A stretch of 64,000 nt of DNA from Atriophallophorus winterbourni (lineage: Eukaryota; Platyhelminthes; Trematoda; Plagiorchiida; Microphallidae), in contig JACCGJ010019686.1 in assembly GCA_013407085.1 (NCBI GenBank), forward strand, positions 1 to 64,000. The letters are read 5' to 3'. Position numbers and translations under genes: made by a program. Each line of letters starts with the position of its first letter. Position 1 is the first letter of the stretch. The notes below the pieces were generated by a model. The model searched no databases. It was given only the letters and a program-made list of their open reading frames with translations, and was not told the origin of the DNA. Below, in pieces: positions 5,842-52,185 of the stretch.

Positions 5842-6120
5842 CTGGTGTGTAAGTGCGGGGGATGTGAGCAACACGTAACTTTGGTCATCCATAAGTGCCT
5901 CGATTGCTTCACCACGAATCACTATGTGATTCTGTGAACATCGTGGTTCTTTGTACGAACCCTCTGTAACAGTGACATTCAAGTCTAACCTTGTTTACCA
6001 TTTATCCACGGTCTCAAAGCTCACTGAACCTATTATTATTGTATCCACCTGATGACGGCAAACAGCCAGAAACCGGTAATGGAGTGTAATTTCGGGGTGT
6101 GTGAGCAACACATCACTTTG
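5842..6120 (+). mobile_element. Hammerhead short repeat (class A), one full unit plus part of a second
   Basis: The unit starts at 5842 just after a ribozyme cleavage position and returns at 6079: GTGAGCAACAC occurs at 5864 and again at 6101, a period of 237 bp. A hammerhead core separates the two (6045-6082). This head-to-tail partial dimer is the organisation expected if a circular or multimeric RNA was reverse transcribed. No open reading frame of note. Related class A copies are at 22060, 31650 and 51965. Confidence 0.75.
6045..6082 (+). ncRNA. Type I hammerhead ribozyme core, class A
   Basis: CTGATGA is at 6049-6055 and GAAA at 6069-6072, both intact. Stem II is GGC/GCC (6057-6059 with 6065-6067) closing an AAACA loop, with a C-A mismatch at its base. 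Stem III is two base pairs (AC with GT) around a CG loop at 6072-6077, and the cleavage base is A6078. Stem I pairs CCAC (6045-6048) with ATGG (6079-6082) at three of four positions. The invariant core bases are all present, making this one of the two best candidates in the window for residual activity. Confidence 0.7.
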
Positions 6121-7240
6121 AATTGAATGTAGTTCGGATAGTTACGGGTTGTTGCACTCGTATGAATCTGAGATAACCCAGGACAGAATGTGTCCGACAG
6201 GAGGATACTGTTTCATGTAACAAGAAGCGTTAGAGAAATGATAGATAAAATCGAAGAATATCAGAAGCTGGAGAAACCAACCTATTCAATCACAGAAAAA
6301 GTCATATTTACAAGTGACCTTGCAGGTTACGAATTAACAAATCCGCGGGTTGAATCCGAAATCATTGCAATAGGATGCGAGAAAAGTTGTATAGAGTGAA
6401 TTTAATTAACCAATTTCAGTTTCAGGACTTCAACGAGTTGATAAAATGACGAAGCTGTATATAAAATAGCCCGAAGGGAAATTCTTGTTTTATTACATCA
6501 CGAGGATACTAAACAAGACTTGGAGTTCGTATCACCATATATTTGTACGCGACTGTGCAAGAGAGCTCACTGAACAGAATTGAGTGAACAATAACTGTGA
6601 TTATAATATATGACAGTCGCACACACGAATCAACAATTTGATACACATGCAATGGGGATCTGATGGACACACTACTAAATGATCTCAGACCAAGATGCGA
6701 AGCTGGATAATGTAGGCGCGTTTCCATTCAGGTTGCGTAATATGTTATGAAAGAATTTCACTTATACTTTAAGCAACAGATCGCAAACTTGTATTTATTT
6801 GAATGACAGTAGTTAAACATTGCTACCCATGCCACTGTGTAACTGATATATCCCATCTGAGCTAAATGAATCTTTACAAATAAACATTGGGTGTATTCTT
6901 TGTAGACTGATTTCAATAAGATAGGTTTTTCATTCCCTTTTGATTATACAAAAATTCCAAATCACAGTATCATTGGATGCCCTAAAAGGAAACATTATAT
7001 AATATTAATTTCGTTTACGTGGCATAATTATTTGGAAACACTTCACACTGCACGGTAACGACGTTTAAATATATCCATTTTAGATTTTCAGATTACCATA
7101 TATCGCATGCAAGAGATCCTAGCCATTTGTGACAACACTTTCACAGCTTTAATGATTGACCAACATAGAAAACTCACATTTCCCCTTCTTGCCAAATAGA
7201 TAAAATTGCACCTGTCAAAAACTGAAATGATAACATTCAA
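6121..7240. other. No recognisable feature
   Basis: A 70-codon open frame at 6190-6399 has no recognised relative and no clear splice context; otherwise nothing supported. Confidence 0.35.
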
Positions 7241-7396
7241 GTGCTCCCATGAGGACGTGTGAACTCGAGTTAAGAGCAGCTGTGAAAAAACAATTCGTTC
7301 AAACCAAGAGCTACTACAATGAAAAACCCACGTGGATGCATCTTTGTAAGCAAGCGTTGGTTTCGGCCAAGATGGAGGCTAAACTGTTTTAATAAA
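7241..7396 (+). CDS. Candidate terminal exon or small ORF, unidentified
   Basis: A 47-codon frame starts at an ATG at 7249 and ends at a TAA at 7390-7392. The stop overlaps a polyadenylation hexamer AATAAA at 7391-7396. The composition (ELELRAAVKKQF, YYNEKPTWMHLC, AKMEAKLF) looks like real protein rather than random translation. An acceptor-like AG lies just upstream (ATTCAAG ending near 7240), so it could be the last exon of a plus-strand gene with earlier exons outside what I can recognise. No family was identified. It could also be a chance frame or pseudogene. Confidence 0.3.
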
Positions 7397-8020
7397 TTCG
7401 AGAGTTCGGCAATCTTAACAGAAAAACACTATATTTAGTCAAGTGAACTGAGAAAGTTGTATGCTTAAAAAGTTTCAATTTTTATAACCTCCGATGTTTA
7501 AGTGGCAAAATTCAGTTTGTTGGTCGATTTTTAAGTAAAAATCATTTCTATAAAATGAAAATTAAATCCAGGAAAATAAAATATCAACAAACTGATGTAA
7601 CTATGCCGGTCATTCCACTATTCCAATATGCTTCAAAAATGAACAACATGCATTATAACAGCATGAATGCAGTTTTGGTGTGTGCCGTAGTTATTGCCAT
7701 ATTATTTTATAATTTTATGGTTTTAGTCGCATAAACGTATGTGAAGTACTTATGCGATTTAGAATGTATCAATTAAAACGAATAACCAATTGCAATTTCA
7801 ACTGCTTATACTCACTCCGTTGGCTAGCATTCCGCGAATTCAGTGTCAATTCGGATTGAATACCACAACTACAAACTTTGAGGTTGAGAACAAAGTTAAT
7901 GTTGGCTTTATTTGGTGGATTTCGACCAGGGATATACATTGCAAGCATATAAATATATCGTGGTCTATGCCGTTTTAAATGAATACACAGTTAATGTATC
8001 GTTTAAAGCTTTTATAATAA
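7397..8020. other. No recognisable feature
   Basis: AT-rich sequence, nothing recognised. Confidence 0.35.
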
Positions 8021-8021
8021 T

Positions 8022-8600
8022 AAGGTGCAGTACGCGGTCGATAACTGGCGATGGTGCCTCTGGAAGAGACGTGATTTGAGCTTGGGTATTAAAGGAAGGA
8101 TATACTCCACCTCGGTAAGTACAGTATTGCTATACGGGAGTGAATGTTGGACAGTTCGCTCAGAAGATGTTAGGAGGCTTGAGGTTTTCGACCAACGTTG
8201 TCTGCCAAGGATTGCTCACGTACGGTGGCGACAACACGTTTGCCAATCTGAGGTCAAGCCCCGCATCTTAGGAAGCAACGGCACTAGCCTTCAAACAGCC
8301 ATTAACCGACGTCGTCTCCAGTGGTTGGTGCGCGTCCTGCGCATGAAACCTGAATGGTTACCACGCCGAGTGCTTTATGCGACAGCTGGTACAGACTGCA
8401 GAAAAGTGGGTGGTGGTCAGCCACTAACATGGAAGAGTGGCTTGAAAAGCTCACTTCTGTTTTAGCCAGGGTTGGACGAGCGAGCTTGCCTGGATGGGGT
8501 GCAAGAGAAGGTGAGAATGTATGACTCGACACATTGGAAACGATGGCAATAAACAGGCATCAATGACAAGAGTGCATCAACTCTATTATCCGGTGACATT
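8022..8600 (+). mobile_element. Family Y non-LTR retrotransposon, C-terminal RT fragment
   Basis: A 146-residue frame (8025-8465) carries the post-RT thumb signature of flatworm endonuclease-RT elements: LWKRRDLSLGIKGRIYST, LLYGSECWTVRSEDVRRL, then RRLQWLVRVLRMKPEWLPRR. After a frameshift at about 8460 the frame continues with VGRASLPGWGAREGENV and DTLETMAINRHQ to about 8560. The family is distinct in sequence from family X and from the RTE element at 57235. 5'-truncated and inactive. Confidence 0.8.
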
Positions 8601-10275
8601 TTCCTATCGTTCCAAATTATATCTATAAAAAATTTCAAAAATCGAGGTGTGTAAATGGACAAAAAACAACTATCAATTGTTCTCTCTTCACTGTTTCTTT
8701 TCTCACTGTTTCTACCTAATTTTTGCCCTTACTCGCTTTGTACATTTCATTGTTTCTGTTGAACCGCACTATATTTGTATCAGATTGTGCGAATTAGCAC
8801 TTTAAAGTCAGCTTCAAAAAGCATGTTATGTGCATTAACTGAGTCCAGAGATTTTATATATCTTCTAGAGATTTATCTGCAAAAAGTTTGACTTCCTGAT
8901 TTTAAATTTTTCGTAAGCGATTTAAATGAAATTAAACAGTTTTTCTTAAATAGACAAAATAATATTTTTTGGTGACATATCTCCAGTGAAAATAATATTA
9001 CCAGTAAAGCAGCTTTGAAACCAGATATTTATTTTTCTGTGTCCATCCCCGATACATGACAATATTTCTTGAATGTACAGCAATTCGCGTCTGTTTGTCT
9101 TGCGTAGATGATAAGCGTTTCACTGTAATGAGGAAACGAATTTATAACACACAATTATAACATTATTTTATCTTCAATATCGGTTAGCGTTATCCTAAGA
9201 CACATTATTTCGAGCAGGGCGAGAGGAATTTAGCGTCTAGAGAAAGATTGAACGATAATAGAAGTAAAGTGTGTGCTAACAGCTCCAGCTGTAGGTAAAC
9301 GTCATAATATAAGCAACATTTATATTAGGTAACTTAATATAGAGCACTTCTTTGTGATTAGTAATGATATGATGCTATTTGTCCCATTCGTCTTTAGTTT
9401 CATGCGGATGTTTGGGGTAAATATAATCACAATCTGACCAATTCAAAGAAAACATTTTAATCAATAGGCTATTTTATTTGCAACAATAGTCTCATCACAA
9501 TCCAAAAATCAGGTTCATTTTTTTGAGAAATGACTAAGCATTTACTTGTGCATAAACAAGAATGATCGAATCACGGTAATCTGGGTAATCCTATTCAAAA
9601 GAACCGTTCGAATTTCCGTTTATTCTTGGCTTTCACAGAGTTCTTTTATGTAATGCACGCTAGGTCTAGTTTGCATGAATGCATTCAATTTGGTCCGTGA
9701 AAATCTGAGATTTCCGTGTGTGATTCTGTGTTTTCATCAATGAAACACGCATATTGATGAATACAGCGATAATTCCGCGAAAATCTACTAACAATATGCT
9801 TTGATTTTAATTCATTTCGTTAGTAAATGCTTTATTGCAACAAGAATTTGTGTTATCTGTTGAATTTAAAAATGGCTGTTTTATTGATGGAATACTACAA
9901 AAGATGATCTTGCATCAAACATACGAAGTTCATCATTCCAGATTTTTTTAAAACGGTAGCCTGCGAAACTGTTACACATTGAAATGCGGAGTGGGCGAAA
10001 ATTGCATCTCGTCTCAAAACAAATGCCTTGTCATCATAAGCAGATTGATAAGAGAGCTTAGAGTAATTTGAGATACGGTTATGATCTGCAACGATCTGGC
10101 CTCTGATCGAAACGTGTGGGCTGGCGTGAATAGAAACATCAATGCAACAGCGGAGCCAGCCGAGCAAAATTGAAAATAAAGTGAGGTTGATGGGCAAGAA
10201 ATATGTATGTACCGCCGAAGTTCACTGCATTCTGACTAACCTTTTATAAAACCTGGATAACACATATGCTGTCAG
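8600..10275. other. No recognisable feature
   Basis: Long AT-rich non-coding stretch. Open frames present are short and without protein-like composition. Confidence 0.35.
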
Positions 10276-10280
10276 CTTTA

Positions 10281-10375
10281 ATTGGGCAAGGAGCAATTGG
10301 GCAAGAAGCAATTGGGCAAGGAGCAATTGTCAAGGAGCAACTGTCGGGGAGCAATTGTCAAGGAGCAACTGTCGG
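10281..10375 (+). repeat. Minisatellite with 15-bp then 14-bp units
   Basis: Three 15-bp units of ATTGGGCAAGGAGCA (10281-10325) are followed by 14-bp variants that alternate ATTGTCAAGGAGCA (10326-10339, 10354-10367) with ACTGTCGGGGAGCA (10340-10353, and a partial at 10368-10375). The last part therefore has a 28-bp higher-order period. Confidence 0.9.
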
Positions 10376-10389
10376 TACCCCCTTTAATT

Positions 10390-11150
10390 CCAAGCCAGAC
10401 AATATATGCACATCAAAAATTACCCGATTGAATGGTGTGTAACTTAACAACCAGTAAACGCTGTGATGAAGTTGGACAACCTAAGAGCGTAAATACTGCA
10501 AACACTTGGCGAAATCCTCTATAAAACCAACTGATTTTCCACCAAGGAAAAGTTATCCATACAGATTGAGGCGCAGACGAAGACGAAAAGCAGACTGATC
10601 AGGAAGGCGAATCTCGCGTCAAAAATGTTACAGCTCATCACGTAATTGGAAGCACTTCGAAATGAAACCATATCTGTATTTTCGATATCAATGTTAGGGT
10701 AATCCTTTTTCGGGATCCGTGAAATGTAATTTAACAAACAACATTACACAGAAGTAACAGAAGTTTATTAACGCAAGATCGAAATGCATACTCAGCATAA
10801 GAAGGCCCAAACATTTAGTAACAACACATAAAAAATAACCTAACAGAAGAAGAATAAAAAATAAAAACTGGCTTCAGAATTTTCCAACTGCATTAGCGTT
10901 TGGATTACTAAGACAGAATCGTACCGCTCCCGACAACAGATAAAACGTAGTGAGACAATCCCTAGACTGAAAAACGATGAAAAATAATATTCAGATCCGA
11001 AGAGACTCGCAGATGTGCATTAAAATCGAGCCGACGTGAGAATAAAAACTGTGTTATGTCTGTGCTGCACTACTGTTGGCTCCGCCGTGTGGTCAGAGAA
11101 AACACGACCGTTACTCAACTCGTCTATTCACCGAATGCAAAGAGTACCAC
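10390..11150. other. No recognisable feature
   Basis: No supported gene or repeat. The part near 11020-11150 may be the remains of the LTR of the adjacent Gypsy fragment. Confidence 0.35.
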
Positions 11151-11159
11151 AAGCGGGCA

Positions 11160-11994
11160 AATTTGTGAATATCACAGTGAGTAAAAATCACAATTTGAAC
11201 TCACCATCGATCTTGATTGGTCGATTAATCGATAGTTCGTCCACTGTTTATACAACAGAGGGTGCCCTCCTAACACCTCCCCGTTTAAGCTTGGTTGTCG
11301 TATGACTTCAGTTTTGGATTCACTTGCAGGCGGGTTACTGGAACACGTCTTCGATCGGTCCGTCTTCTTTGTCTGCATTCCGGTGAATTAATTCGAGGGG
11401 ATCTTCTCCCACTGGCTTTATTTGTTCTGGGCTTTTGAGGTTGAATTCACTCAGTAGGATTTTCAATGGAGTTTCCTGCATACTTGGAGAATTCCATGTT
11501 GAACTCGATGCCCTTGGTCGGTTTGCATGTTTCTTTTCCAATCATTATCTCGTAACAAACGTGGCCCACGATCTTGTTAACGATCCCTGGGGTCCATTTG
11601 ATCTTATCACCACGGTAATCCTTGGCGAGAACATTTTGTCCGACCATAAATTTTTGGGGTTCTGCACCATTATTTCTATTGTATTGGGCTTCCATTTCAA
11701 GATTTTTATCGATATGCTCTACCGTTTTTGGTCGCATGATAGTGAAGATGGTTCTCGACGTTTGCCTTAGCATGACTTCCGCAGGTCATATGGCTCCAGG
11801 TACGTTAGGATTAGGTGTGATTCGGTAGAACATCAAAAATTCTGCAGAACGTCTTCCGTATCCCCTTCCCCCGCTGCTTTGCGCATTGCTTGCTTGAAAG
11901 TGTCTACGAACCTCTCCACTTGTCCGTTTGATTGTGGGTGATATGGCGGTGTGCGGATGTGCTTCATTCCGAACCGATAGAAATAACTGAAAAC
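11160..11994 (-). mobile_element. Gypsy LTR retrotransposon relic, integrase to LTR edge
   Basis: Minus-strand integrase end. The core region around the third acidic residue reads YHPQSNGQVERFVDTFK near 11900-11955, followed after a frameshift by NPNVPGA, and then a C-terminal chromo-like/GPY-F block (FMVGQNVLAKDY, WTPGIVNKIVGHVCYEIM at about 11530-11640). A run AAACGGGGAGG (11276-11290 on the minus strand) looks like a polypurine tract, and TGTTAG at 11275 downward would begin the LTR. Clade differs from the CsRn1-type element at 39240. Broken by frameshifts and truncated at its 5' side. Confidence 0.75.
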
Positions 11995-12144
11995 CGACGC
12001 GTCCACCGTTTAAAGGACGATGGGTTTAACACCATTAAACATGTGTTTGGACACATGTGATTAAACAAGTTGGTCGTGCCAGCCTTATCCAACAGTGGCA
12101 TACAAGCGCTCCTTGTCGACGCGTCCACCGTTTGAAGGACGATG
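11995..12144 (+). mobile_element. Hammerhead short-repeat fragment flanked by a 28-bp direct repeat
   Basis: A 94-bp piece of the class B unit (12023-12116, including GTTGGTCGTGCC and ATCCAACAGTGGCATACAAG) lies between two copies of a 28-bp sequence beginning CGACGCGTCCACCG (11995-12022 and 12117-12144) that differ at one base. The direct repeats look like a target-site duplication created on insertion. The inserted fragment has no hammerhead core of its own. Confidence 0.7.
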
Positions 12145-12202
12145 TACAACACTTGAATTAACCGTCAAATTTAATTATTATAATAGAATGTTTGTCGAAA
12201 TC

Positions 12203-12465
12203 GCGTAGTATGTCGTGGTGTGTGTGTGTGTGCTGAAAATGCATGCGAATGAGCATTTTATGCATGAGCATGGGTTTAACATCACCAACACGAGTTTGGA
12301 CATACGTGATTGAACAAGTTAGATGTGCCAACCTTATCCAGCAGTGGCTCACAAGTGCATCTTGTTTGCCATTCTTCCACTGTTCCAAGAAAGCGGATCA
12401 TGATCGCACTGCCCCTACCTAATAACTGCAGACACCAAGAAACTGGTCATGGGCATATTGTGTAG
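12203..12465 (+). mobile_element. Hammerhead short repeat (class B), full unit
   Basis: Unit runs from GTC/GTGG at 12214/12215 to the next cleavage position at 12448/12449, 234 bp. It contains the class B landmarks: a TG-rich start, a pol III B-box-like GGTTTAAC stretch in place of the usual GGTTCAAACCC, GTGCCAACCTTATCC, and GGATCATGATC before the core. Confidence 0.75.
12415..12452 (+). ncRNA. Hammerhead ribozyme core, decayed (class B)
   Basis: Geometry is kept: stem I strand CTAC at 12415-12418, GAAA at 12439-12442, stem III AC-TG-GT and C17 at 12448. The first core box reads CTAATAA (12419-12425) in place of CTGATGA, so two invariant G residues are changed to A. Stem II is also degraded. 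Predicted inactive. Confidence 0.55.
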
Positions 12466-12469
12466 TAGG

Positions 12470-13829
12470 CTGTTTTCAACTCGCGATTATTGAGATAGTT
12501 CTGGAACAGTTTACTGTGTTAATTTAATGTTCGCAACATTTATATAAACGCAAATAAAGATGTGTGGATTCATAAAACAAAATTAGGAAAACTTCGTAGA
12601 ATGGTTGGGACTTATGATTTAAAAAATTATTTTAACCAAGTAAACAGGGAATCAATATATTTTATTAAAGCTTAAAGGACTGAGGTTAAAACGATGAACA
12701 CAAATTTTCCTGTCATTTAATGAACTAGGTCATGCAACCATCCTTTGATTTAGCAATTTTAGGTTCCAACACTTTCGCCGCTCTTACATGCCGATTATCG
12801 TTTTAAATAATATACACTAATAATAATATACACATGTCTACCCGTCAAAACTATTTGCGACGGAAATATTTCATTAGAACTTGATGGAAACAATTAGTTA
12901 TTTATGTCACTGACAACTGAGCAGTGCCACATTCTTTGAACAATTAACATAATCGATCAGGATGCTCTACAGTGGACGAACTGGACTCGAGTTTCGCTCT
13001 TATTGGAGATCTCTGTAGTGCATATCCTCTACCTCCGGTGGGATTTGAACTACTACCATCACAATCAGTAATACTTTATACTTTATCTTCCGTGAAGAAC
13101 AGAAAATGAGATCAGATCGGTGTTTGACGACGACAGATGTTGATGGCGCCTTCTCAACTGGCCGGGCTCATGACGGTACTCAAACGTCAGGAGAAAGATT
13201 TCAGAATGCTAAATAGAGATCGGTCAAACGGTGAACCGAACCCCAGGCTCTAATGCGTAGAACAACAGTGGTGATGGTCGAAGGCTTTATTCCGACCAGA
13301 GGCAGATGATATGCATTGCTGATAAGCTCAAATAGCTGCGAAACCCAAACCTGATTCTCCCATGTTCGAATGTTGTGAATATTTTGAAGGACATTGTACT
13401 TATAAGTAGTCATAGATATTTAATTTATCACAATGCATTTTCATGCATGGGTTCTAAGTGATTACAATCACTACGCACACAGCCTGACGATCCGCTAGTA
13501 GTATTATCGTTTTCTTCAAATTTCATTTTATTCATTTTCTGTTTAATGAAGATTTGTCTACCTAGGTATTAAGTAATGTAAAATTGGCGCAGCATCTCAT
13601 ATACGAATTGAAGTAGATACTGGATTCCTTCGGTTATACGGCACCACAAATCCGTAGTTTTGAATATGATATACAGCTTTGAAAATCGAAAATAGACATG
13701 TAATGATTAGTGATTTGGAGGGCTCTACAGAGGGAAAGGCACTTTGTTGAAATTTCGAGATTTTTTACTAGCCAATACGTAGAATCAGAATACATGTTTC
13801 AAAATCCAATTATTTCTGGTGAAAATAAA
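12470..13829. other. No recognisable gene; minor repeat similarity
   Basis: Bases 13710-13800 resemble 26540-26640 (shared ACGTAGAATCAGAAT and neighbouring bases), so this is probably a low-copy unclassified repeat. Otherwise nothing recognised. Confidence 0.4.
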
Positions 13830-13831
13830 TA

Positions 13832-14979: not shown

Positions 14980-15600
14980 AGGCTCATTGAAACTGATTTT
15001 AATTTTTCCAAATCATGAGACTAAAGTGACAAAAAATGATTATGAAATTTTAGCTCCGCAAAAGTTAGCCAAAATTGCAACGGTCATTAATCTTGATCGA
15101 TCATTCAATCTTGAGTAGTTGAAAATTATCACACTATAAACTCCGTAGTAATTTTTATAATCCATAAAAAACAGTGGTTTTCAAGCATATTTCTGTCAAC
15201 TACGTTTCCAATGTTTCAACTATCTTCCACTAATGGAGGCAAAGTTTTTAAAGTTTAATTACGGTGGATATGTCCAAGATAACTCACAACAACTTGAAGG
15301 AAAGAAGAATATTATTATCTCTTGTCTTAACTTACAAAATTCTGAAAAGTAATTGAGAGCAGCTAATATTAATTAATTTCCCATATCAACCTTTGGGTAC
15401 CTTTTCGCGCCATGAAATGTCACTGACTTAGCGCGAAGCTTTGCAGTTGCTGCAAGTTCACAGTGTTTTCCGTTGCAGCATTTCATTTTCCGTGGATTAT
15501 CGATGCCGACAGATGAAAAGAAGTTTTGCTGATGATGTCATCTAGCCTGATGACGAAACGTCCACGAACAACTACGCAAGCTCGGCGAACACAAGGTGAG
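14980..15600. other. No recognisable feature
   Basis: AT-rich non-coding sequence. The motif CCTGATGACGAAAC at 15547 was examined as a ribozyme core and rejected. Confidence 0.35.
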
Positions 15601-15607
15601 CACATTA

Positions 15608-15838
15608 ACTTCAGGTTCAGTGAGACCTGAAGCAGTGGTATAATGGTAAAAACATACACACCCCAAGACCAGATTTCTGTTGTTTGCACTCATCAGGTAG
15701 GAACAGCAGGATCAGGATCCGCATGCGCTGGAAACAGTGAAATGATAGTACACAAATTGCGCTTGTATGCCACTGTGGGATAAGGTTGGTACGACAAACC
15801 AGTTCAATCACATGAGCCCACCTTCTTATAGATAAGGT
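15608..15838 (-). mobile_element. Hammerhead short repeat, class B joined to a class A piece
   Basis: On the minus strand a class B core and unit (15655-15838, with GCATGCGGATCCTGATCC and the GGTTGGTACGAC block) continues at 15608-15650 into sequence matching class A (complement contains GGTTCAGTGAG, as at 22170-22185). The junction suggests a chimera between the two classes. Confidence 0.65.
15663..15700 (-). ncRNA. Type I hammerhead ribozyme core (class B)
   Basis: On the minus strand CTGATGA is the complement of 15690-15696, followed by GTGC, loop AAACA, ACA and GAAA (15674-15677). CTGATGA and GAAA are intact and base 10.1 is the consensus G. One base is missing from the 3' strand of stem II, and stem III has one extra loop base, so folding is weakened. 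Confidence 0.6.
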
Positions 15839-15844
15839 TTGAAC

Positions 15845-15990
15845 CCATATTCCGGTTGTGGGATTTGTATGTGATGAAAATAATGCATATGAGCTCTCTG
15901 TTGTTGATCATGGGTTCAAACCCTATCTACATACGTGTAGGCTCGTGTGATTGAACAGGTTAGTCGCACCAAACTTGTCCAACAGTGGCA
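15845..15990 (+). mobile_element. Hammerhead short-repeat fragment (class B)
   Basis: Plus-strand partial unit starting at the post-cleavage end (CCGGTTGTGGGATT) and running through GGGTTCAAACCC (a pol III B-box-like motif near 15910) to CCAACAGTGGC. It sits head to head with the minus-strand copy at 15608-15838. No complete core. Confidence 0.65.
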
Positions 15991-16539
15991 TAAACAGGCC
16001 ACTTTTTAAAATGTATTCGAATTTAAAGCAGACATTAGGTCAGGATTAATTTTACAACTTGAGAAACCAGTTCAAATCTTTTAACTTTTTGCTTCATACA
16101 AACGAATTTGTTGTTAGCAACGAACAGATGGATTTGGGTTATTTCATAGTTTATGTACTTACAAATGTGACACGTAATCATACGTTAAAGTATACATTGT
16201 ATAATTATGTTAGATTGAAAGTGCATTCAAAAATTGGGCACCCGAAGACGAATGACTTTTTGGCGGGAAATGGCATGGCATTCAATAATAGACTCACAAA
16301 TTTGATTGGACTCCATCACCGAAATCTAAATTGAGAACCAAATGAGTGTAGTTGTTAGTGATATTTGTAAAAATGGTTCCTATCAAAGGGCTCCGTCTCA
16401 TCGACCGAAGTAAATATTTGCGAACCCGAGATAACGGTGGTTTTGAGTGCAGATTTTAAGCTTACTATTTCTGCGTTCAAACAATAAATTAATTAATGCT
16501 TTGCGCTATGTAACAACGCGGTATAATAATCAATTAATG
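15991..16539. other. No recognisable feature
   Basis: No gene or repeat recognised; a 91-codon frame at 16059-16334 has no family resemblance. Confidence 0.35.
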
Positions 16540-19143: not shown

Positions 19144-35646
<16,503 letters not shown>

Positions 35647-35974: not shown

Positions 35975-36325
35975 TTGGTAAACAAGTCGCGCTTGTGTGC
36001 CACGGTTGGGTAAGGTTGGTACGACCAACCTGTTAAATCACATGAGCCCCACTCATGTAGACTGGGTTTGAACCCATGACCATGATTATAAAAGCTCATT
36101 TGCATTCATCTCCATCACACAAACATACACCACGACCAGTTTCGTGCTGTTAGCATTCATCATGTAGGGACAGTAGGATCAGGATCCGCATGCGATTGAA
36201 ACTTTTGAGAGAATGGTAAACAAGTTGCGCTTGTATGCCACTGATAGGTAAGGTTGATACGACGAGCCCGTTCAATCACGTGTGTGTGATGGAGATGCAC
36301 GCAAATGAACAATTAGTTGGTCTTT
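35975..36325 (-). mobile_element. Hammerhead short repeat (class B), more than one unit
   Basis: Minus-strand copy upstream of DNAAF11: unit part 35975-36134 (GGTTGGTACGACC, TGGGTTTGAACCC with a B-box-like complement) and the next unit from the core at 36130 onward (CAGGATCCGCATGCG, GTTGCGCTTGTATGCCACTG). After about 36275 it switches to a plus-oriented scrap. Confidence 0.7.
36130..36167 (-). ncRNA. Hammerhead ribozyme core (class B), one core substitution
   Basis: Minus strand: ATGATGA (C3 changed to A), stem II TGC/GCA with loop TAACA, GAAA, stem III AC-TG-GT, cleavage base C36134 complement, stem I CTAC/GTGG with four pairs including one wobble. C3 pairs with G8 in the catalytic core, so probably inactive. 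Confidence 0.6.
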
Positions 36326-43423: not shown

Positions 43424-43558
43424 TCATCTGACTCACCCTCTCCAATTCACAAAACTCGATCAGGCCGGAGAGTCAGGTGGCCTGCAAACTTTGCAGACTA
43501 CGCTGATTAACTATACTTTCGTTTCGAGCGTTTCACTCTCTTCTAACGTTCTGAAGAG

Positions 43559-43833
43559 TGAGTATTATGGTGTTTTTGATTATTGTATATTTTATTACAA
43601 TAACCCTACATATTTCATTATTGTTTTGTTTTAATGATACATGTAAATATGTACACAATTTGAATATACGATTCACGCCGCGCTCGTATTCTGCTTTGGC
43701 ACAAGTATATCGCGTGTGACTGCCTGGGATCTGTATGCTGTTATTCGTTGCGAACTGTGTTCCGGTTTATTGCGTTCAATAACCAGAGACGTACTTTGTT
43801 AGTGGTGAAATCTCCGTTGGATCAACCGCTACA
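43559..43833 (+). repeat. 3' LTR of Gypsy element
   Basis: Starts TGAGTATTATGG and ends CGCTACA. Pairs with 39240-39512. No strong polypurine tract is visible just before it; only a short GAAGAG. Confidence 0.85.
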
Positions 43834-43839
43834 CTCTAA

Positions 43840-44740
43840 CCAAAGACGGACGGTGTAAGAATCAAATTTAATATCAAGTTGTTCTAGACTTATCCTCGTG
43901 GAGTTGTTAACATTTTGCATCAAGTTGAGTTTGGACATTGTACACAGATCTTCTCCACATAAAAGTTTCACTTTTCAAAATCAAAACCAACAGGTTTATA
44001 TAAGGCATTTCAAGATCTTCCAGAATGATAGTCACCAAACCGCAATGCTATTCGAATTGAGAACATTATGCAGCATGCTTCTTATCAGGCGTCCAGATAA
44101 AAACTCCATGGTTTTGTAGACCAACAGCTAGAATTTAAATTCCACTAGACGATTTCGGCAGTTACGGCAGCAAATTTATATATTTGCTGCACATCAACGG
44201 CTATGTGATCTTCATGATACAGTTCAACATTACCTGAAAATCTAGAAGGCACAGTCACACTTATAATGCGTATATTTTAGAAATTATATATTTCTTTATT
44301 TATTACCGAAAAATCATCTTAATTTAAAATGCGAGTTGTTAGATTGGCCAAGAAATTTCAAGTTCTCTTCGAGATTTGTCAATATCGACGGTGTTTAGAC
44401 AGAATCTACCTACTTTTAAGAAAAAAATCGGAGAATTTTTAAACGAAACAAACAAACTGAAGGGAATCTTATAGAACATCTAATGAACACGAAAGACATA
44501 AATAAAATGTGAACGTTTAAGTAACGAGAATTTTTATAATTCAATCACAGAATTTGTATGAGAGTGAAAAATACGTGAATAAGCTTGGTGGGGTTAACAC
44601 AAACAGTTCATAATGTTTCTTTATAATATACAACAAATTACTTATTTGTGGAAAATTAAAACAAACAGAATGAGAATACCGAAAAGAATAAATAATTTCA
44701 AAAGGTGTAAAATTTAATTAGTTATAAAATTCGAAATTAT
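43840..44740. other. No recognisable feature
   Basis: AT-rich sequence between the Gypsy element and the candidate exon; nothing recognised. Confidence 0.35.
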
Positions 44741-44744
44741 TGCA

Positions 44745-44931
44745 GCTGAAAAGTATGCCTCATTGTTCACTGAAACTTTGTGCACGTTATTCAATTCATG
44801 ATTGCATCTGGAAGTGGTCCCAGTTCCAGATTTCCTTCGACGGTATGCGGTTGAGCACCCGGCACTTCGATATCGAGTGTACAGTTCGTACTTTTCACAC
44901 GTTCTTGTTTCCGAATATCTGGAAAGTAAAG
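44745..44931 (+). pseudogene. Candidate host exon with internal stop, unidentified
   Basis: Between an acceptor-like ATTATTGCAG (ending 44745) and a donor-like GAAA/GTAAAG (44930) one frame reads AEKYASLFTETLCTLFNS, a TGA, then LHLEVVPVPDFLRRYAVEHP and ALRYRVYSSYFSHVLVSEYL. The composition is strongly protein-like. The stop suggests a pseudogene or misjudged boundary. No family was recognised. The CR1-like element at 44937 begins directly after it. Confidence 0.35.
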
Positions 44932-44936
44932 TAGGG

Positions 44937-46063
44937 TTTCTCTTCACCAGCACGGTGAGAGGTCAGCTATTCAGGAAACAAGGCAATAATATGCGTAAAC
45001 AATGTGTGGTGTCTGAAATCACTAGCCTAGTCGAGGTAAAGTGAAACACAGTCATATACTGCGTGTGGGCTAATTTGCTGTCGGGTTGTCCAGGCCTAGA
45101 CAGATATGATAAAAATGTAAAAATACGTTTTTTTGTTTTTCTAAAGTTTTTTTATTAGACAATATGCCGAATTATGATAGACCATTTAACGTCTAATTCC
45201 CTTTTAAGGCTCAACACATTTGATAGGCTTACTTTACAATCTGGGAGCTTGTTCCAGAAGTTGACCACACGTTTGCTGAAAAAGTGCTCACGTGCCATCA
45301 ACCTGGGCCTACTCTTAAGAAGTTTCATGGAATTACACCTTGTAGCTGCTTTAGGGGCAAGATGAAGGATTTCAGTAGTATTATCGCCCGTAAGACCCTT
45401 AGGGATTTTGAAGGCTTCTATTAGGTCACCTCGCAGCCGCCGTCACTTTAGTGAGAACAAACCGAGGTCCTTGAGTCTAGCCTCATAAGTTTTACCTGCC
45501 TGACCCTCAACCTTCCTAGACGCAAGACGCTGGACCCTTTCGAGACATGCTATATCCTCTTTTAAGTACGGTGCCCAGGATTGAACGCAGTACTCCAAGT
45601 GAGGCCGCACGACTACTTTGTATAAGGGAATGAAGATCGGAGGTTTTCGGCAAGATAACGCTGAGCGAAGTCTGGATAATTCTCTGCGAGCCTTGTTTGC
45701 AGCTTTGGCACATTGAGTAGCCCATATAAAAATGCCTGTTATAGTAATGCCAAGATCCTTCACTTTCTGAGCCGCCGCAATTGTGATAGTTCCTTCACCA
45801 ACTTCTAGTTGGGTTGTCGCTAAATCAGTCGACAGAAGACAGCTCTTCCCCAGGTTTAGTGGCAAGTCCCAGGTCTTTGTCCACTCGATTACTTTTTCTA
45901 AATCAGAGATAAGCGTATCTCTACTGTCGGTTCCCAGAATCTTACCATCATCAGCAAACAGGAAGCAGCGTGAACTCAAACACGCTGCCAGGTCGTTTAC
46001 AAAAATAAGAAAAGGTAATGGACCAAGCACCGAGCCTTTAGGGAAAAGTGACCATGTCACCAT
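44937..46063 (-). mobile_element. CR1-like retrotransposon, RT C-terminal half (head-to-head partner 1)
   Basis: Minus-strand frame 45443-46063 starts at motif B (KGSVLGPLPFLIFVNDLAAC) and includes FADDGKILGT, LEKVIEWTKTWDLPLNLGKS and YKVVVRPHLEYCVQSWAPYL. Decayed coding continues to about 45180 and the 3' end lies at 44937, where the complement of GGTGAAGAGAAACCC matches the 3' end of the plus-strand partner at 48205-48222. 5'-truncated at the junction with that partner. Confidence 0.85.
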
Positions 46064-48222
46064 AATATTCCAGGCAATTCTCTGTTTTCATAAGCTACCG
46101 GTCAAATACAGGCGTAATCTAAATCGAGTTGACTGGAATGCTGTACGGCTTTCCGCTTTACGATGTGACTGGTTCTCTGAAACCAATGATATCAAAAGTA
46201 AATGGTCGGTTATTAAGCGCAATATTTTAAGTCTTCAAGACCTTTACTGAACTTTTCGACCTATACGGCTAAAGAACAAGCCACCTTGGTGGACTCCTGC
46301 GGTGCGACGCAACATTATTAGGCGTGACAGACACTGGCGGAGATACACAGCCTTGCCAACCTATAGAAATTGGTCGTGCTATAAGGCTTCGAGGAACAAC
46401 CCAGTAAAGCTACAAGGAAGCTTAAGCGATGCTACGAAACTTACCTGGCGAAGTCTGCTAAATAGTACCCTAAGAAGTAGTTATGTTCAGTCTAAGGGTA
46501 AGACAAAGGAGCACATAGGTACCCTAATATTAGACAATGGCCAGAAAGCCAATTCTGACCCTGAAAAGGCAGCAGCTTTGCTGGATTATTTTCGAAGCGT
46601 ACATAGAATGGATGGCGGGGATGCGATTCACTCAGTCCCAACTCTTAATACGGAAATGGGTGCCTCACTAAGCGAAGTAGTTTTTTGTACGGATGATGTC
46701 GCACGTGTCCTAAAGAATCTAGACGGAAATAAATCCGCCGGACCTGACGATGTGCATCCTAAAATTGTAAAGGAAATATCTACGGTACTAGCAGGGCCTC
46801 TATGTGAGTTATATAACGAATCGTTCTGCAAAGGCATCCTACCAGATGACTGGAAGAAAGCCATTGTCGTACCCATTCAAAAGGGAGGTTGCGCAAACAT
46901 AGTTAAGAATTTCCGACCGGTAAGCTTGACTAGTGTTTTATGTAAAACCTTGGAGAGACTTATCAGGGATCGATTGTGCAACCACCTCGTGCACAATTCA
47001 TCATTAGGCACGGTTCAACATGGATTTCTTAAAGTAGGGTAGTGTCTCTCAAATCTTCACGACTGGATAAACAGTTTTCTTCGAGATACATCCTTCCAGG
47101 TCCGTGTAGGCGATACTACCTCTGAATTCGCAACAGTTACCAGTGGGGTCCCACAAGGTTCAGTATTAGGCCCAATACTCTTTCTGATCTTCATCGATGA
47201 TCTGGCATCGCAGTTGTCATGTCCCTGTTACATGTTTGCTGATGATGTCAAATTCACCGGATCCAGTGATCACGGTGATTTGTTGAGAGATATTGAAAAG
47301 GTCATTAAATGGTCGCAGGATTGGGATCTTCCTCTGAACTATAGTAAATGTCATCTGTTGTCTGCAGCAGTCGACAGAATTACAGTAACTGCGAATAACG
47401 GTAGGATCGACTTTCAATCTATTCAGAGGATTAAGGATTTGGGTATAGTCGTAACAGCGGACTTCAAATGGGCTGCGCAGTGTGCCACCGCTGCACAACG
47501 AGCTAGAGGAGAACTCTTTAGGCTTAAATCCGTTCTGACATGTAGAACGCCGGAAGTGTTTATCCCTTTATATACGGCGATTGTCAGGCCGCATTTAGAA
47601 TACTGCGTGCAAGCCTGGAGTCCCTTCTTTCAAAAGGACATATTACTATTAGAAAGAGTACAACGACTGGCTACCAAAATGGTTGAAGGTATGTTTGGGA
47701 AACCCTACGAAGAACGTCTAATTTCTTTAGGTCTCTTCTCCCTTCGGCGTCGGCGTCTACGGGGTGACCTCATAGAAACTTTCAAAATCCTGAAAGGCTT
47801 AGGCGACGAGGGCTGTCAAATCCTGTTCTCTCGAGCGATCAACCCCTCAACTAGAGGACATACATTGAAGCTCGCGAAAAACCACAGCCGTCTGAATCTT
47901 AGGCAACACTTTTTCAGTGAAAGAGTGGTAAGCTTCTGGAACAAGCTGCCTGAGAAACTAATAGCTTGCACATCAATAGGTGCATTCAAAAGGGGTTTAG
48001 ATGCCTTGTGGCTTGGGCTTTTCCCAGACTTTTTCCCGTGAATATGCCTGTTGTCTGTTGTCAGAATTGTCCATTTTTGTTCATTTTGAAATTATATGGT
48101 CTTGACCACAATTTAAAAAAATCCTGTTATATAATGCCTCGTTTTAAATGTCATGTTTTAAATGTACGCACCAATTTTCCATAGCTAACCTCTCACCGGC
48201 TTGGTGAAGAGAAACCCTTTCC
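46064..48222 (+). mobile_element. CR1-like retrotransposon, RT region with internal deletion (head-to-head partner 2)
   Basis: Linker and RT start at 46090-47042 (SAGPDDVHPKIVKEISTVLA, GILPDDWKKAIVVPIQKGGC, NFRPVSLTSVLCKTLERLI), then a stop and a jump from CLSNL directly to DWINSFLRDTSFQVRVGD at 47043-47110. The jump removes catalytic motif A (the FD...AFD block). Motif B (TSGVPQGSVLGPILFLIF) and FADDVKFTG follow, with an intact C-terminal frame 47214-48041 (LEYCVQAWSPFFQKDILLLE, RRRRLRGDLIETFKILKGL, HFFSERVVSFWNKLPEKLI). 3' end at about 48222. Inactive. Confidence 0.88.
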
Positions 48223-48239
48223 GTTTTTCTCAGTCGCAG

Positions 48240-48596
48240 CTACAAATTCTGGGACCAAAGGACGGCTTGGAAAACACCGGACGTACCTTCGCATACGACG
48301 AGGATACCAGAAAAAAATGAACCAACTTTGGCAGTGGTGGGCGCTCCTTTGAAGCTTTTCACAGACGGAAATTCTGGACGCTCGATTGGCTTATCCCTTG
48401 GCAGCGCGATCGTCGAGGATATCCAAATCACAATAAGAAAAAACGCTTTGGCAGTGGTGGTAGCTTCTATGCAGCTTTCCACCGAAAGAAATTCTGGACG
48501 CTCGATTGGCTCGTTAGCCACATACTGTCCAGTGCAAACCGAATTGAACTGAACTGAAAATAAAACGGTAATTATACAAATGTTAAGGTCGAACAT
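48240..48596 (-). CDS. Unidentified ORF with hydrophobic N-terminus and two PIERPEF repeats
   Basis: 118-codon minus-strand frame from a true ATG at 48596. The start (MFDLNICIITVLFSVQFN) could be a signal peptide. Two copies of PIERPEF(L/P)SV followed by a TTAK block are spaced exactly 40 codons apart, and a second hydrophobic run (FFLIVIWISSTIAL) lies between them. No family recognised. Could be a small secreted or membrane protein, or an accident of a duplicated repeat. Confidence 0.3.
   Translation of the reverse strand: MFDLNICIITVLFSVQFNSVCTGQYVANEPIERPEFLSVESCIEATTTAKAFFLIVIWISSTIALPRDKPIERPEFPSVKSFKGAPTTAKVGSFFSGILVVCEGTSGVFQAVLWSQNL
48326..48511. repeat. Direct repeat, 66-bp units with 120-bp period
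   Basis: Copies at 48326-48391 and 48446-48511 share CTTTGGCAGTGGTGG at one end and TTCTGGACGCTCGATTGGCT at the other; about nine differences lie in the middle. The period is a multiple of three, so both fall in the same frame. Confidence 0.85.
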
Positions 48597-48599
48597 AAA

Positions 48600-49185
48600 T
48601 ACATTTCTCCTGTTGTTAACAACCGTAAAAATAGTTGGATAACATTTGTACAGATGGTAGCTTGTTTAAAATATGAAGTTGATAGAATATTGGGAAATTA
48701 AATGATAAAAGTTCGTATTTTTAACGAATACAACAGTAATTGTTTGAATTGGGTTAATTACAGTTTGGGTAGGTCAGAATCGCAATGTTTATTCATGTAT
48801 GTTGTTCCAAATGCAACTTCAAACGCAGATAAGCGTATAGGGAGTTCACTTCATCGGGTCACGGAGATATGAGTGGTATCGCCATTTCAAGAATTGTGAG
48901 AGTGTATTTTGTTGAATTTCAACAATTCTGAAAATTAAATTCTCAAGAAAAATTACTACTATTACAATTGCTATTAGAATTATTAAGTATAAATGGCGAC
49001 GGGAATGGTTCAATAAATTGTGGGGTTGACTTAGTTCTGGACTATTTTTACAGAAAACATTCTAGACTGTCTTTGCTTCGTTAGAAGGCTTTATTTGAAC
49101 ATTAAATGTGCTTATTTACTGTTATTTGTGTTATCTTTCTTTCCAAAAATCAGTGGATTATGATATTGCGTCAGTCTCTCGGCAA
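48600..49185. other. No recognisable feature
   Basis: No gene or repeat recognised; may include the lost 5' part of the Gypsy relic that follows. Confidence 0.35.
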
Positions 49186-49189
49186 GGAA

Positions 49190-51960
49190 GGCCAAATACA
49201 CTTCGACGCGATGGATCTGCTAAAGAATTAGAAACTTTTTGATGCGTTAACTGGCTTTGTATCCCTATGGGGTATTCACCGGAAAGTTACCGTCTCACCT
49301 TATCAATGTCTTAAGTTGATGCAAATACCTGAAAAAAACCTTAATAAGTTTATTTCACGCATTCATCAAGCAATATCCGAATGAAGGTATAGAGAAATCA
49401 GACAGGAAATGATAGAAAAAGTGATGAAGATTCAATATCTCCTATCTGGAGTGGCCGACCATCAAACAAGAAAAAACTGCTCGCTAAAAATGAGTCTGAG
49501 TTAACTTGTTAGTAGGCTTGTGCGATTTTGCGACAAAAGGAACATCTGAAGCAACAATTGGACTCGACAAGGATCTCTCAACAAGGATGCACAAAATTTC
49601 ACAAATTAGCTGCTTGTTCATCAGTAAAAAGCAACGTTCTGACCTGCGTTTTTCAGTTTTATAGTTGTAGTGAAAAACATGAAAGCGCCAGGGTATGTCG
49701 ACATCAGAAGACAAAGTGCAATAATTGCGGTAAAATAAGCTATTTGCACGCTCTTTTGTTGGTAACCGGTAAACGTCTTTGCTTTAAGAACGGATTTCAA
49801 TGAGTCTACTTTGCAATCGAATCACGTTACGTCGACTACTTCAGAGCCAATTAAATTAGTCTCATATATGCTATCTGTTAAAATGACCCGTGCTCTAATT
49901 TTATTGAAAGTTCAAACAGAATCGCCACCAACTCTCATAGAACGAAAATTGATAGACCTAAATTGGTTGATTCCACCAAGTACAAATATTTCCCAAAGTT
50001 ACACGGGGAAACATTGATATGCTTGTGAAGTGCCAGGTAACCGTTGAATACAATAGTACTACATCAAAGTTACCGGTTTACTCAGAGCAAGCCGCCCCAT
50101 CGAACATACTCGACCGTGATTGGTTACAACACTTCAGTCTCATAATCTCCAGAGTGCATTCAGTAGCCATTTATACTTTCTCTTCGACGCTTCAGCGTTA
50201 AAAGAACGTCTTTGATGATCCAAAACTTGGAATGTTACCAAATTTCAAAACCAAAATCAACCTGCGAGATCACATCATCCTAAATGGTTCATACCACGAA
50301 TTTATTTGTTTACCTTACAGCCTAAAGTATTGGAGGAATTAAAACGTTTGCCGGACAATTGATGCATCAATTTGGCAGCTCCAACCTTACCTATGCACAG
50401 GTCTAATGACAACGTACGAATATGTGGTGACCTCAACCTAACTCTGAACAGATTAGCATTTGCTGATCAATACCCGTTACCGAAAATATAAAATTCGTAC
50501 GAAATCTTGGCTTGGGGCAAAATTAACGAAAATGGACTTCAGTCATACCTACTTCCAAAGGTTGTCACAGCCGGGGGTGGCAGTGGGGATGAGCTCCCAC
50601 TGTCTATAAAATGCTCCCATAAGGCGTGCGTCTCGAACAGCCTCTGACAACCAAAGCTCAGCTCCTGGCCTGCACGTGGCGGAACTGCTCCTATTGACAG
50701 GAGAAAGGGCGGAGGCGGGTGACTGGCGCCTCAAAACCAGTTTGCTCCGGGCAGATGGAGCTCGTTAGCCTGAGAGGGCAGTCTATCTAAGGGAAGGAAA
50801 ACCCTGATTTCAAACCTCCGCTGCCTTGGGGCATACCCGATTGCGGGAAAGGCTTCGGGAGTGAACCCTGAGAAGCATCCCTGCTGCCTTGCGGGAAGAA
50901 TTTTGAGTCAAAGGCTCCGGGTGGGGTCCCGTAAGCTAACCCCCTTCTTCGGCCTTGGCAACCGGGTAGTATGTCGCCTACAACAAGAACCATGGATTCT
51001 ACTTCAACCACAACTTGCTGTCAAAATTACGTTGTAAACAGACAGACAACAAAAAATCGCCCCTTGTTTTCTTTTTTTCTTTCATCATGTACCTTCTTCA
51101 TGGTATACTTGTTGGCACATCGTCTGTAAAGACTTGTGTGATAATAATAATAATAATAACTCTCAAATCGAATTAAATAAATGTTTCCAGAAGCTTACCA
51201 CCATTGCAACATGTATGGGTTCGATCAGCTATACAATCTTGCTGTTTGGCATCAGCTCAGTCCCTGGGATATTTCAACGCGTGATCGATAACTTGTTTAG
51301 AGATATACCAAAAATGTGCTTAAATGAACTATATCCCGATTATCGGAAGGACGTACGACGAACACTTGGAAACGCTTTATCGCGTACTTTAGCGAGTCGT
51401 AAAGGGAGGGGTATGTTTGAAGATATGTAAGTGCAAAATAATGATTAATTCTGTTGAATACTTTAGTTTTAAACTCGATCGAACCGGGTTACACCCATTA
51501 TCAGTCCGAATGAAAGCCATCCTAGAGACGCCTGCATCACGAAACGAAACCTAACTACGATCTTTCATAGTCATGCTGTCCCATTAGCGAAGGTTTCGGC
51601 AAACCATTTTAATATTCTATCTCCCTTACAGAAATTGTTAAAGAAGGTTGTAAAGAGAGCAGCAAATATTTTAAAATGCTAAACGCCTTTGGCTCCCTCG
51701 GGGATCTTGTTTCATTTCGATTCCGAGAAACCTCTGCTATAGAGTGTGACGATCCGCCTAACGACGTTGGTTTGATGATGTGGCATAGATATGATCATAC
51801 GGAATTTCGTCCGATTGCATTTACGATATGTACACTAAATTCTCCAGAGAAAAGTTACTCACAATTAGACAACGAGGCTCTTACCGTAATAATCGGATAG
51901 AAGCGTTTTCATCAATATTTATGCGCAAATGTTTTTCACATATTGACTGATCATAGAACC
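49190..51960 (+). mobile_element. Gypsy LTR retrotransposon relic (gag to RNase H), split by an insertion
   Basis: Different clade from the 39240 element. Gag with CCHC-type knuckles (CSEKHESARVCRHQ, KCNNCGKISYLHA near 49665-49755), protease end (SNILDRDWLQHFSL near 50098), and RT up to KMDFSHTYFQ at 50530-50553. After a 605-bp insertion RT resumes (LTTIATCMGSISYTILLFGI, SSVPGIFQRVIDNLFRDI at 51200-51310), then a decayed catalytic region and RNase H (AFTICTLNSPEKSYSQLDNE, HILTDHR to 51955). Many stops. Its 3' side is cut by a hammerhead short repeat. Confidence 0.85.
50554..51159 (+). mobile_element. RTE-leader-derived insertion with (TAA)n tail
   Basis: Starts AAGGTTGTCACAGCCGGGGG like the RTE-like element's 5' end and keeps its leader (GGCGGAACTGCTCCTATTGA, GACTGGCGCCTCAAAACCAG). 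It then continues into non-coding sequence unlike the RTE coding region and ends in TAA repeats (51141-51159). Inserted in the RT of the Gypsy relic. Best described as a short non-autonomous relative that borrows the RTE 5' end. Confidence 0.8.
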
Positions 51961-51964
51961 GCTA

Positions 51965-52185
51965 TGCGTTTAGCGGTGGATAAATGGTAAACTAGATTAT
52001 ATTTGAATGCCACTGTTGCATAGGGTTCGTACAACGAACCACGATGTTCAAACATAGATTCACATGGTGATTTGTGGTCGTGCACTCGCGGCGCTTATGG
52101 ATGACCAAAGTAATGTGTTGCTCACATCCCCCGAAATTACACTCCACTACCGGTTTCTGGCTGTTTGCCGACATCAGATGAAGAC
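51965..52185 (-). mobile_element. Hammerhead short repeat (class A)
   Basis: Minus-strand class A copy carrying GGGTTCGTACAACGAACCAC, GATGACCAAAGTAATGTGTT and the core at 52144-52181. It joins the Gypsy relic on one side and a CR1-like fragment on the other. Confidence 0.75.
52144..52181 (-). ncRNA. Hammerhead ribozyme core (class A), one core substitution
   Basis: Minus strand: CTGATGT (A9 changed to T), stem II GGC/GCC with loop AAACA, GAAA, stem III AC-CG-GT, cleavage base A, stem I TCAT/GTGG by two Watson-Crick and two wobble pairs. Likely weak or inactive. Confidence 0.6.

Follow-up and report, generated by a model that had tools for sequence, protein, structure and literature searches.

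Retrozymes of metazoans carry type I hammerhead ribozymes in tandem repeats of 150–450 base pairs (bp) and are flanked by duplications longer than 4 bp (PMC7229834). Invertebrate retrozymes described as efficient have a stable helix III, and minimal type I hammerheads, the role of which is called a mystery, are dispersed by the thousands in the non-coding DNA of animals (PMC7761336). In the schistosome Sm-alpha short interspersed nuclear element (SINE), a hammerhead is part of a short retroposon (PMC8490949). Penelope-like elements (PLEs) contain pseudo-long terminal repeats (pLTRs) of 181–218 bp, a 31-bp tail, and an inverted pLTR in a head-to-head arrangement, are bordered by duplications of 8–10 bp, and also occur as solo pLTRs (PMC3846280). 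The protein of a PLE from Anolis starts copying inside the RNA, and both strands of the target are cleaved and extended; cleavage by the hammerhead is dispensable in vitro, and C3 and G8 of the PLE hammerhead precede the start codon (PMC11167929). PLEs have been proposed as likely helpers in the mobilisation of retrozymes, a proposal that is made without insertion evidence of the kind presented below in the available parts of the sources (PMC7229834, PMC7761336). Here, a dispersed family of short repeats, each unit of which contains a type I hammerhead with a minimal stem III, is described from positions 1 to 64,000 of contig JACCGJ010019686.1 of the trematode Atriophallophorus winterbourni (assembly GCA_013407085.1), referred to as the window, and from the rest of the genome.

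The repeats are best explained as short, non-autonomous, non-coding, retrozyme-like elements of two subfamilies, which have hammerheads that act as dimers and are mobilised by the machinery of PLEs; we put the probability of this explanation at roughly two-thirds. Like metazoan retrozymes without long terminal repeats (LTRs), they are apparently non-coding repeats, each unit of which has a single type I hammerhead, they occur both in tandem and dispersed in thousands of copies and with duplications of more than 4 bp, and their 232–241-bp units, approximately 28 of which form one array, match the tandem organization of retrozymes (PMC7229834). Unlike metazoan retrozymes, they do not have a stem III that is stable in the monomer, and their insertions have a two-sided PLE fingerprint. 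Their stem III, AC-NN-GU, contrasts with the stable helix III of most invertebrate retrozymes, and whereas published minimal hammerheads are dispersed motifs, those described here can be attributed to a defined short element, the ends and duplications of which have been mapped (PMC7761336). The very short stem III is shared with the minimal hammerheads of PLEs, and a tail reaching 30–45 nucleotides (nt) past the hammerhead, head-to-head inverted repeats, and duplications of approximately 8–14 bp are found in PLEs and in the short family alike. However, the short elements differ from PLEs in the length of the unit, in the absence of a reverse transcriptase frame, and in a hammerhead distinct from that of the PLEs of this genome. 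They resemble the schistosome Sm-alpha SINE in being short retroposons with a hammerhead (PMC8490949). A survey of the literature by titles and the openings of abstracts, with subscription papers mostly outside its reach, found no short non-autonomous hammerhead elements with a PLE tail and inverted copies.

Hammerhead family in the window

The genome searched is a 537-Mb draft assembly of 15,840 contigs, of which the window is contig C12105. A first-pass annotation of the window listed eight hammerhead sites that follow one motif plan, and the observation is confirmed. Covariance model R1, built from 20 copies located elsewhere in the genome and none from the window and applied to the window with all filters disabled, places these sites, on the strands given, at ranks one to eight with E-values of 1.6e-19 to 9.3e-8, whereas rank nine has an E-value of only 0.05. 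Because R1 was built from the same sequence family, its scores measure family membership and not, by themselves, ribozyme function. The motifs of the plan are eroded: CTGATGA is exact in three of the eight sites (6049, 15696, and 22165), AC-NN-GT is retained in six, and the combination of CTGATGA and GAAAC only at 6049. Subfamily I is represented by the sites at 6049 (+), 22165 (−), and 52177 (−) and by a fragment at 31624–31762, and subfamily II by those at 12419 (+), 15696 (−), 26125 (−), 27087 (+), and 36163 (−). The copies are listed below, with R1 scores in bits.

5842–6120, + strand: complete subfamily I element, consisting of a 237-bp cleavage-to-cleavage unit (5842–6078) and a tail of approximately 42 nt, with the 10-bp duplication TGAATTGAAT on both sides
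6037–6092, + strand: subfamily I hammerhead with intact CTGATGA and GAAAC and C-A mismatches in stems I and II (71.5 bits)
12020–12453, + strand: subfamily II element of approximately 1.8 units
12407–12462, + strand: subfamily II hammerhead with a core worn to CTAATAA (33.6 bits, E-value 9.3e-8)
15661–15992, both strands: subfamily II head-to-head pair, 15661–15810 (−) and 15871–15992 (+), with a PLE-type tail nearby at 15529–15592
15653–15708, − strand: subfamily II hammerhead with intact CTGATGA and a damaged stem II (48.0 bits)
22120–22245, − strand: 5′-truncated subfamily I element with a hammerhead at 22120–22175 (72.5 bits)
26062–26334, − strand: subfamily II element with a hammerhead at 26082–26137 (50.5 bits)
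26829–27161, both strands: subfamily II head-to-head insertion, 26829–26875 (−) joined to 26874–27154 (+), with the perfect 10-bp duplication AGAAAGAAGT at 26815–26824 and 27162–27171
27075–27130, + strand: subfamily II hammerhead with the core CTGATCA (60.7 bits)
31624–31762, − strand: subfamily I fragment without a hammerhead, additional to the eight sites
35976–36308, both strands: subfamily II element, 35976–36283 (−), with a hammerhead at 36120–36175 (−; 59.6 bits), and a short inverted piece, 36280–36308 (+)
51976–52187, − strand: subfamily I element with a hammerhead at 52134–52189 (62.7 bits) that has the core CTGATGT

A check of the eight sites with hammerhead covariance models had been suggested: the Rfam scan of the window detects no hammerhead at gathering scores and none at E ≤ 10, whereas R1 gives all eight sites 33.6–72.5 bits. 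Across the genome, 32 matches of RF00163 are listed, 27 of them above the cut-off. Three of the 20 RF00163 places that were fetched are copies of subfamily II of the window, with scores of 37.2 bits (C4684 and C15279) and 35.9 bits (C1298) against a cut-off of 34 (loci L025, L026, and L028). The top-scoring RF00163 matches belong to another hammerhead family. A relaxed hammerhead pattern, all classes pooled, is found at 48 sites in 254,663 bases (the 20 loci and the window) and at zero or one site in each of five order-1 resamples.

Repeat unit and abundance

The first-pass description of a dispersed repeat of approximately 235 bp with a type I hammerhead and a minimal stem III is supported, and the family is retroposed and similar in size to retrozymes. 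Units of 237 bp (5842–6078), 232 bp (L026), and 241 bp (L024) have been delimited, and subfamilies I and II are approximately 70% alike across roughly half of the unit. Near-intact cores with up to three mismatches number 14,784 for subfamily I (34 nt) and 11,199 for subfamily II (35 nt) genome-wide, and reversed-pattern controls give none. These counts are somewhat high as numbers of independent copies, because the two core patterns differ at only five places, so that a few sites may be included in both counts, and because the assembly contains duplicates, with three pairs sharing flanks among 20 places fetched.

Three pairs of exact subfamily I cores, among 100 listed, are spaced exactly 241 bp apart (C74, C258, and C381). 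The segment C129:5678–12264 is a satellite-like array, in which a 233-bp unit of subfamily II is repeated approximately 28 times and which is possibly a source locus, and the longest inserts measured contain 2.6 units. The family accounts for 3.9% of the bases (33 inserts) in 20 loci of 190,663 bases, a non-random set picked for Rfam hammerhead matches, and for 3.7% (10 inserts) in the window. The ATG within CUGAUGA starts a short frame of 12–59 codons across the tail in subfamily I, and the frames opened at the hammerhead ATG, the only frames of the unit considered, have at most 79 codons. A frame for a reverse transcriptase with a GIY-YIG domain cannot fit in the 232–241-bp unit.

Structure of the hammerhead

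The structure was assessed in 28 aligned hammerheads, with six pairs in stem I, four in stem II, and two in stem III. It is paired in 82.7% of the cells, compared with 77.1% in shuffled alignments and 31–52% when the structure is slid along the alignment. Double changes are located chiefly at one pair of stem II (U-A and G-C in a ratio of 15:11) and one pair of stem I (C-G and U-A, 13:6); they trace mostly the split between the subfamilies and so represent few events.

A proper hairpin cannot be formed by stem III, AC-NN-GU, since its loop would consist of two bases, and monomer folding used as a ribozyme test gives results no better than shuffles for six sites. The arm of stem III, ACCGGU, is self-complementary. 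When two copies are cofolded, a double hammerhead with a six-pair stem III is the minimum-energy complex in two of four sequences, one of the four having been assembled from the exact pattern and the flanks of subfamily II. The full stem III is predicted to form only between two copies. The arms of stem III are likewise self-complementary in the hammerheads of PLEs (GAAACGUC) and in the Sm-alpha-like hammerheads (GAAACUCGAGUC) of this genome. The minimal hammerheads of PLEs, which have a very short stem III, reportedly cleave as dimers.

Ends of the inserts

The ends of inserts were mapped in two samples. The first contained 66 inserts in 274,898 bases, 52 of which were kept after eight had been dropped as duplicates or for flank words in common with a neighbouring insert, and six as cut by the edge of a locus. 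The second consisted of 20 loci from the first part of the list of 100 exact subfamily I cores and yielded 21 inserts, of which 19 were kept. In the first sample, 16 of 36 outward 3′ ends of subfamily I and 15 of 27 of subfamily II lie at unit positions 25–47, whereas only 2 of 37 and 2 of 28 5′ ends do so (Fisher's exact test, 1.1e-4 for each subfamily). The second sample has 12 of 24 3′ ends versus 1 of 24 5′ ends at unit positions 30–47 (Fisher's exact test, 7e-4). The main cluster of 3′ ends is located approximately 40 nt beyond the cleavage site, and a minor class at positions of approximately 141–160 was recognized by eye in both samples. The 5′ ends are scattered across the unit.

Exact target duplications of at least 10 bp flank 6 of 52 inserts of the first sample, compared with 2 of 2652 mismatched flank pairs, and 7 of 19 inserts of the second, compared with 1 of 342. 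For duplications of at least 8 bp, the corresponding values are 8 of 52 versus 47 of 2652 and 9 of 19 versus 8 of 342. Inserts in which copies are joined head to head with their 3′ ends outward ('<>' or '<<>') number 12 of 52 and 5 of 19, whereas tail-to-tail arrangements number one and zero.

The short elements work like PLE inserts, without a claim that they are themselves members of the PLEs, and we infer that their hammerheads cleave and that a PLE protein is their helper. A single copy of the minimal hammerhead in each unit could hardly form stem III, whereas a pair of copies, whether part of the same tandem transcript or of separate RNAs, could form a double hammerhead. The PLE enzyme would start copying at a favoured point approximately 40 nt 3′ of the cleavage site, less often near position 141–160, and would proceed for a variable distance upstream. 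Both target strands would often be extended, so that two copies would be joined head to head, and the insertion would leave duplications of approximately 10 bp. Since copying passes over the cleavage site without a break in the RNA, the template would have to be either tandem RNA that is not cleaved or RNA that has been re-ligated into a circle.

If the family instead consisted of typical metazoan retrozymes, every unit would cut itself, the monomers would be circularised, and the circles would be copied to multimers and inserted. The published combination of a type I hammerhead, 150–450-bp tandem repeats, and duplications of more than 4 bp (PMC7229834), the inserts of up to 2.6 units, and the long array on C129 all agree with such a pathway. 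However, the cleavage site is not marked by 5′ ends: those within 5 nt of it number 4 of 37, 1 of 28, and 0 of 24, compared with expectations of 1.6, 1.2, and 1.0, which is no clear enrichment. The stable helix III of efficient invertebrate retrozymes (PMC7761336) is missing from the short family, and RNA circles, although compatible with the data, are required by nothing in them. The retrozyme pathway is an unlikely account of the family. The complete element at 5842 had hinted that 5′ ends at the cleavage site are the mark of a cleaved-RNA template; neither sample of inserts bears this mark, and the idea was rejected. The first-pass annotation proposed retrozyme-like or Sm-alpha-like elements that pass through self-cleaved, possibly circular, RNA. 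Its view of a retrozyme-like, short retroposed family is retained; however, it did not include the Penelope-type tail and the head-to-head inverted copies, 5′ starts at the cleavage site are not above chance, and the Sm-alpha type is abandoned (see below).

Penelope-like elements of the same genome

A PLE remnant is present in the window at 60896–62641 (−). Used as a query, it gave 150 scored matches out of 2211 candidates, many of them in frames of 700–947 codons. PLE tandem arrays with long open frames and a spacing of approximately 2520–2530 bp were found on C2474, C13126, C10286, C7240, and C11715, which suggests recent activity. Searches of Pfam and the PDB with the broken remnant from the window gave no useful match. 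A frame on C6967 matches RVT_1 above the cut-off (32.8 versus 29.6 bits); it matches no PDB chain, and the sole NCBIfam matches are weak ones to reverse transcriptases, with scores under the cut-off. In P0122, a relative with 57% identity to the C6967 frame, RVT_1 and a C-terminal GIY-YIG are both just under the cut-offs. Relatives of the C6967 frame with 46–57% identity are encoded by Spirometra, Dicrocoelium, Clonorchis, Opisthorchis, and Schistosoma.

From the 150 matches, 12 upstream and 17 downstream end regions were read (29 regions, 29,079 bases, 25 contigs). A PLE-type hammerhead is present in 13 of the 17 3′ regions, or in 12 according to a stricter pattern. These hammerheads, CTGATGATG...GAAACGTC and CTGAAGATG...GAAACGTC, differ from those of the short elements, on C3511 as elsewhere. 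The shared tails of PLEs end, where the copies diverge, 42–47 nt beyond the cleavage site as judged by eye and 45–52 nt beyond it according to a script with a window method.

At two places, unit pieces of the short family border PLEs closely. The PLE at C3511:14151–17030, which has a 756-codon frame, is flanked by two subfamily I pieces with their 3′ ends outward (unit positions 32 and 150), one of which starts approximately 10 nt after the PLE tail, and the whole is bordered by an 8-bp repeat. On C4692 (L076), an antisense unit piece directly follows a PLE tail. Both junctions are tighter than chance would often yield. The C3511 arrangement, a single weak case, may have arisen as one chimera, with a switch of copying from the RNA of a short element to that of a PLE, or it may represent a pLTR or nearby insertions. 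A chimera, if true, would tie both types of element to one enzyme. In the window, a PLE-type hammerhead with its tail (+) and, within approximately 10 nt, an antisense piece resembling subfamily I occupy positions 15529–15638, a junction similar to that on C4692.

The repeats could alternatively be solo pLTRs, relics or hitch-hikers, of an autonomous Penelope family whose pLTR contained this hammerhead and which has since been lost or become rare, is missing from the assembly, or lies outside the regions read. Solo pLTRs have been published (PMC3846280), and the tail offset, head-to-head copies, and duplications of the short family are the same as those of PLEs. The 12–59-codon frame that opens at the ATG of CUGAUGA and runs through the tail of subfamily I, and the PLE between two subfamily I pieces on C3511, also point in this direction. 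By contrast, the hammerheads in the 13 PLE 3′ regions, including that on C3511, are of other types, and the approximately 26,000 near-intact cores together with the 28-unit array suggest that the short unit itself propagates, which makes a solo pLTR origin doubtful. An autonomous PLE with the repeat as its pLTR was initially suggested by a 661-codon frame, found on C6967 and C13380, that has a unit on its 5′ side. This candidate was dropped: the three places are 97.8–99.7% identical copies of one locus, including the sequence that precedes the unit, which marks the unit as a nearby insertion, and the 3′ hammerhead of the PLE is different.

Several observations weigh against mobilisation of the family by PLEs through dimer hammerheads. 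The short elements and PLEs are alike in tail offset and AC-rich ends and have no long common sequence. No PLE with the short unit as its own pLTR was seen in the 29 end regions, and unit pieces are present in four of these (L056 and L065, both on C3511; L058; and L076), close to the five expected from the density of the family. L058 and two places on C6967 are one duplicated locus, the PLE of which has its own, different hammerhead. The 8-bp repeat on C3511 is weak evidence, as repeats of this length occur in 47 of 2652 mismatched pairs. The matches themselves are taken to be PLEs on the basis of family traits, the RVT_1 and GIY-YIG matches, and architecture, while no tool names Penelope. The main cluster leaves out approximately half of the 3′ ends, and 46 of 52 inserts in the first sample and 12 of 19 in the second have no duplication of at least 10 bp. 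In the test with 28 sequences, neither the count of doubly changed pairs nor that of further pair types exceeds the value in the shuffles. None of six sequences has the single-copy hammerhead as its fold of lowest energy, and for the other two of the four cofolded sequences the complex of lowest energy is not the double hammerhead. Most copies in the window are decayed.

Sm-alpha-like SINE and other features of the window

Schistosomes reportedly carry a SINE named Sm-alpha. The family at the head of the Rfam hammerhead list of the A. winterbourni genome is an Sm-alpha-like SINE with a canonical hammerhead, the copies of which have a common sequence to approximately 75 nt beyond the cleavage site. 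In 12 of 21 copies of this SINE, a B box of RNA polymerase III with up to one mismatch lies no more than 60 nt upstream. By contrast, none of 96 matches of the short family in the fetched loci, some places having been fetched twice, has such a B box within 240 nt upstream, and its hammerhead is not of the canonical kind. Worn copies of the Sm-alpha-like SINE are present in the window at 63966 (−) and 13319 (+), outside the eight sites. Another retroelement fragment, at approximately 62705–63868, separates the PLE remnant of the window from the copy at 63966.

It is improbable that the short family is a relative of schistosome Sm-alpha that relies on RNA polymerase III for transcription and on a long interspersed nuclear element for copying. 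The size is similar, both are hammerheads in short retroposons, and the genome does contain a SINE that has both a hammerhead and a B box, including the worn copy at 63966 (−); however, that SINE differs from the short family in sequence. The short family is characterized by inserts in head-to-head order and by a tail beyond the ribozyme, neither of which is known as a trait of SINEs. Membership in Sm-alpha, to which the first-pass annotation had linked the elements, was rejected on the basis of the B-box counts, 0 of 96 versus 12 of 21. That hammerhead-like words arose by chance in an unrelated repeat and have no ribozyme meaning is hardly credible: the cores in the window are damaged, the window has no Rfam match, and the monomer folds do not surpass shuffles, but three copies elsewhere are above the RF00163 cut-off, stems I and II contain double changes between the subfamilies, and approximately 26,000 cores hold the conserved positions within three mismatches.

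Other mobile elements in the window include a non-LTR reverse-transcriptase-type frame at 58766–60367 (−), the best named relatives of which, with 46–62% identity, are from Lingula, Trichobilharzia, and Heterobilharzia. Twister-P1 matches are present at 27898–27952 (+; 45.6 bits) and 60396–60449 (−; 33.7 bits), both below the cut-off of 67, and the latter adjoins the upstream side of the non-LTR frame. Twister-type ribozymes upstream of RTE elements are mentioned in PMC7761336. The segment 39338–43833 (+) is likely an LTR retrotransposon, in which 175-bp direct repeats with 96% identity surround polyprotein-like frames, as recognized by eye.

Implications

Three carriers of hammerheads, an Sm-alpha-like SINE, PLEs, and the short element, can be told apart in one genome. 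The stem III arms of the three (ACUCGAGU, ACGU, and ACCGGU) can pair with those of a second copy, which fits ribozymes acting as pairs. The scattered minimal hammerheads of this genome resolve into one defined element with PLE-type insertion ends. The hypothesis that PLEs serve as helpers, proposed before but little documented, becomes directly testable. The chances are about even that the short elements are SINE-like partners of PLEs, in which approximately 26,000 near-intact ribozyme copies borrow the PLE enzyme, with a favoured start approximately 40 nt beyond a hammerhead that is self-complementary and forms only as a dimer. If true, this would provide sequence-level evidence for the proposed link between hammerhead retroelements of animals and PLEs, and it could account for many of the minimal hammerheads dispersed in animal genomes.

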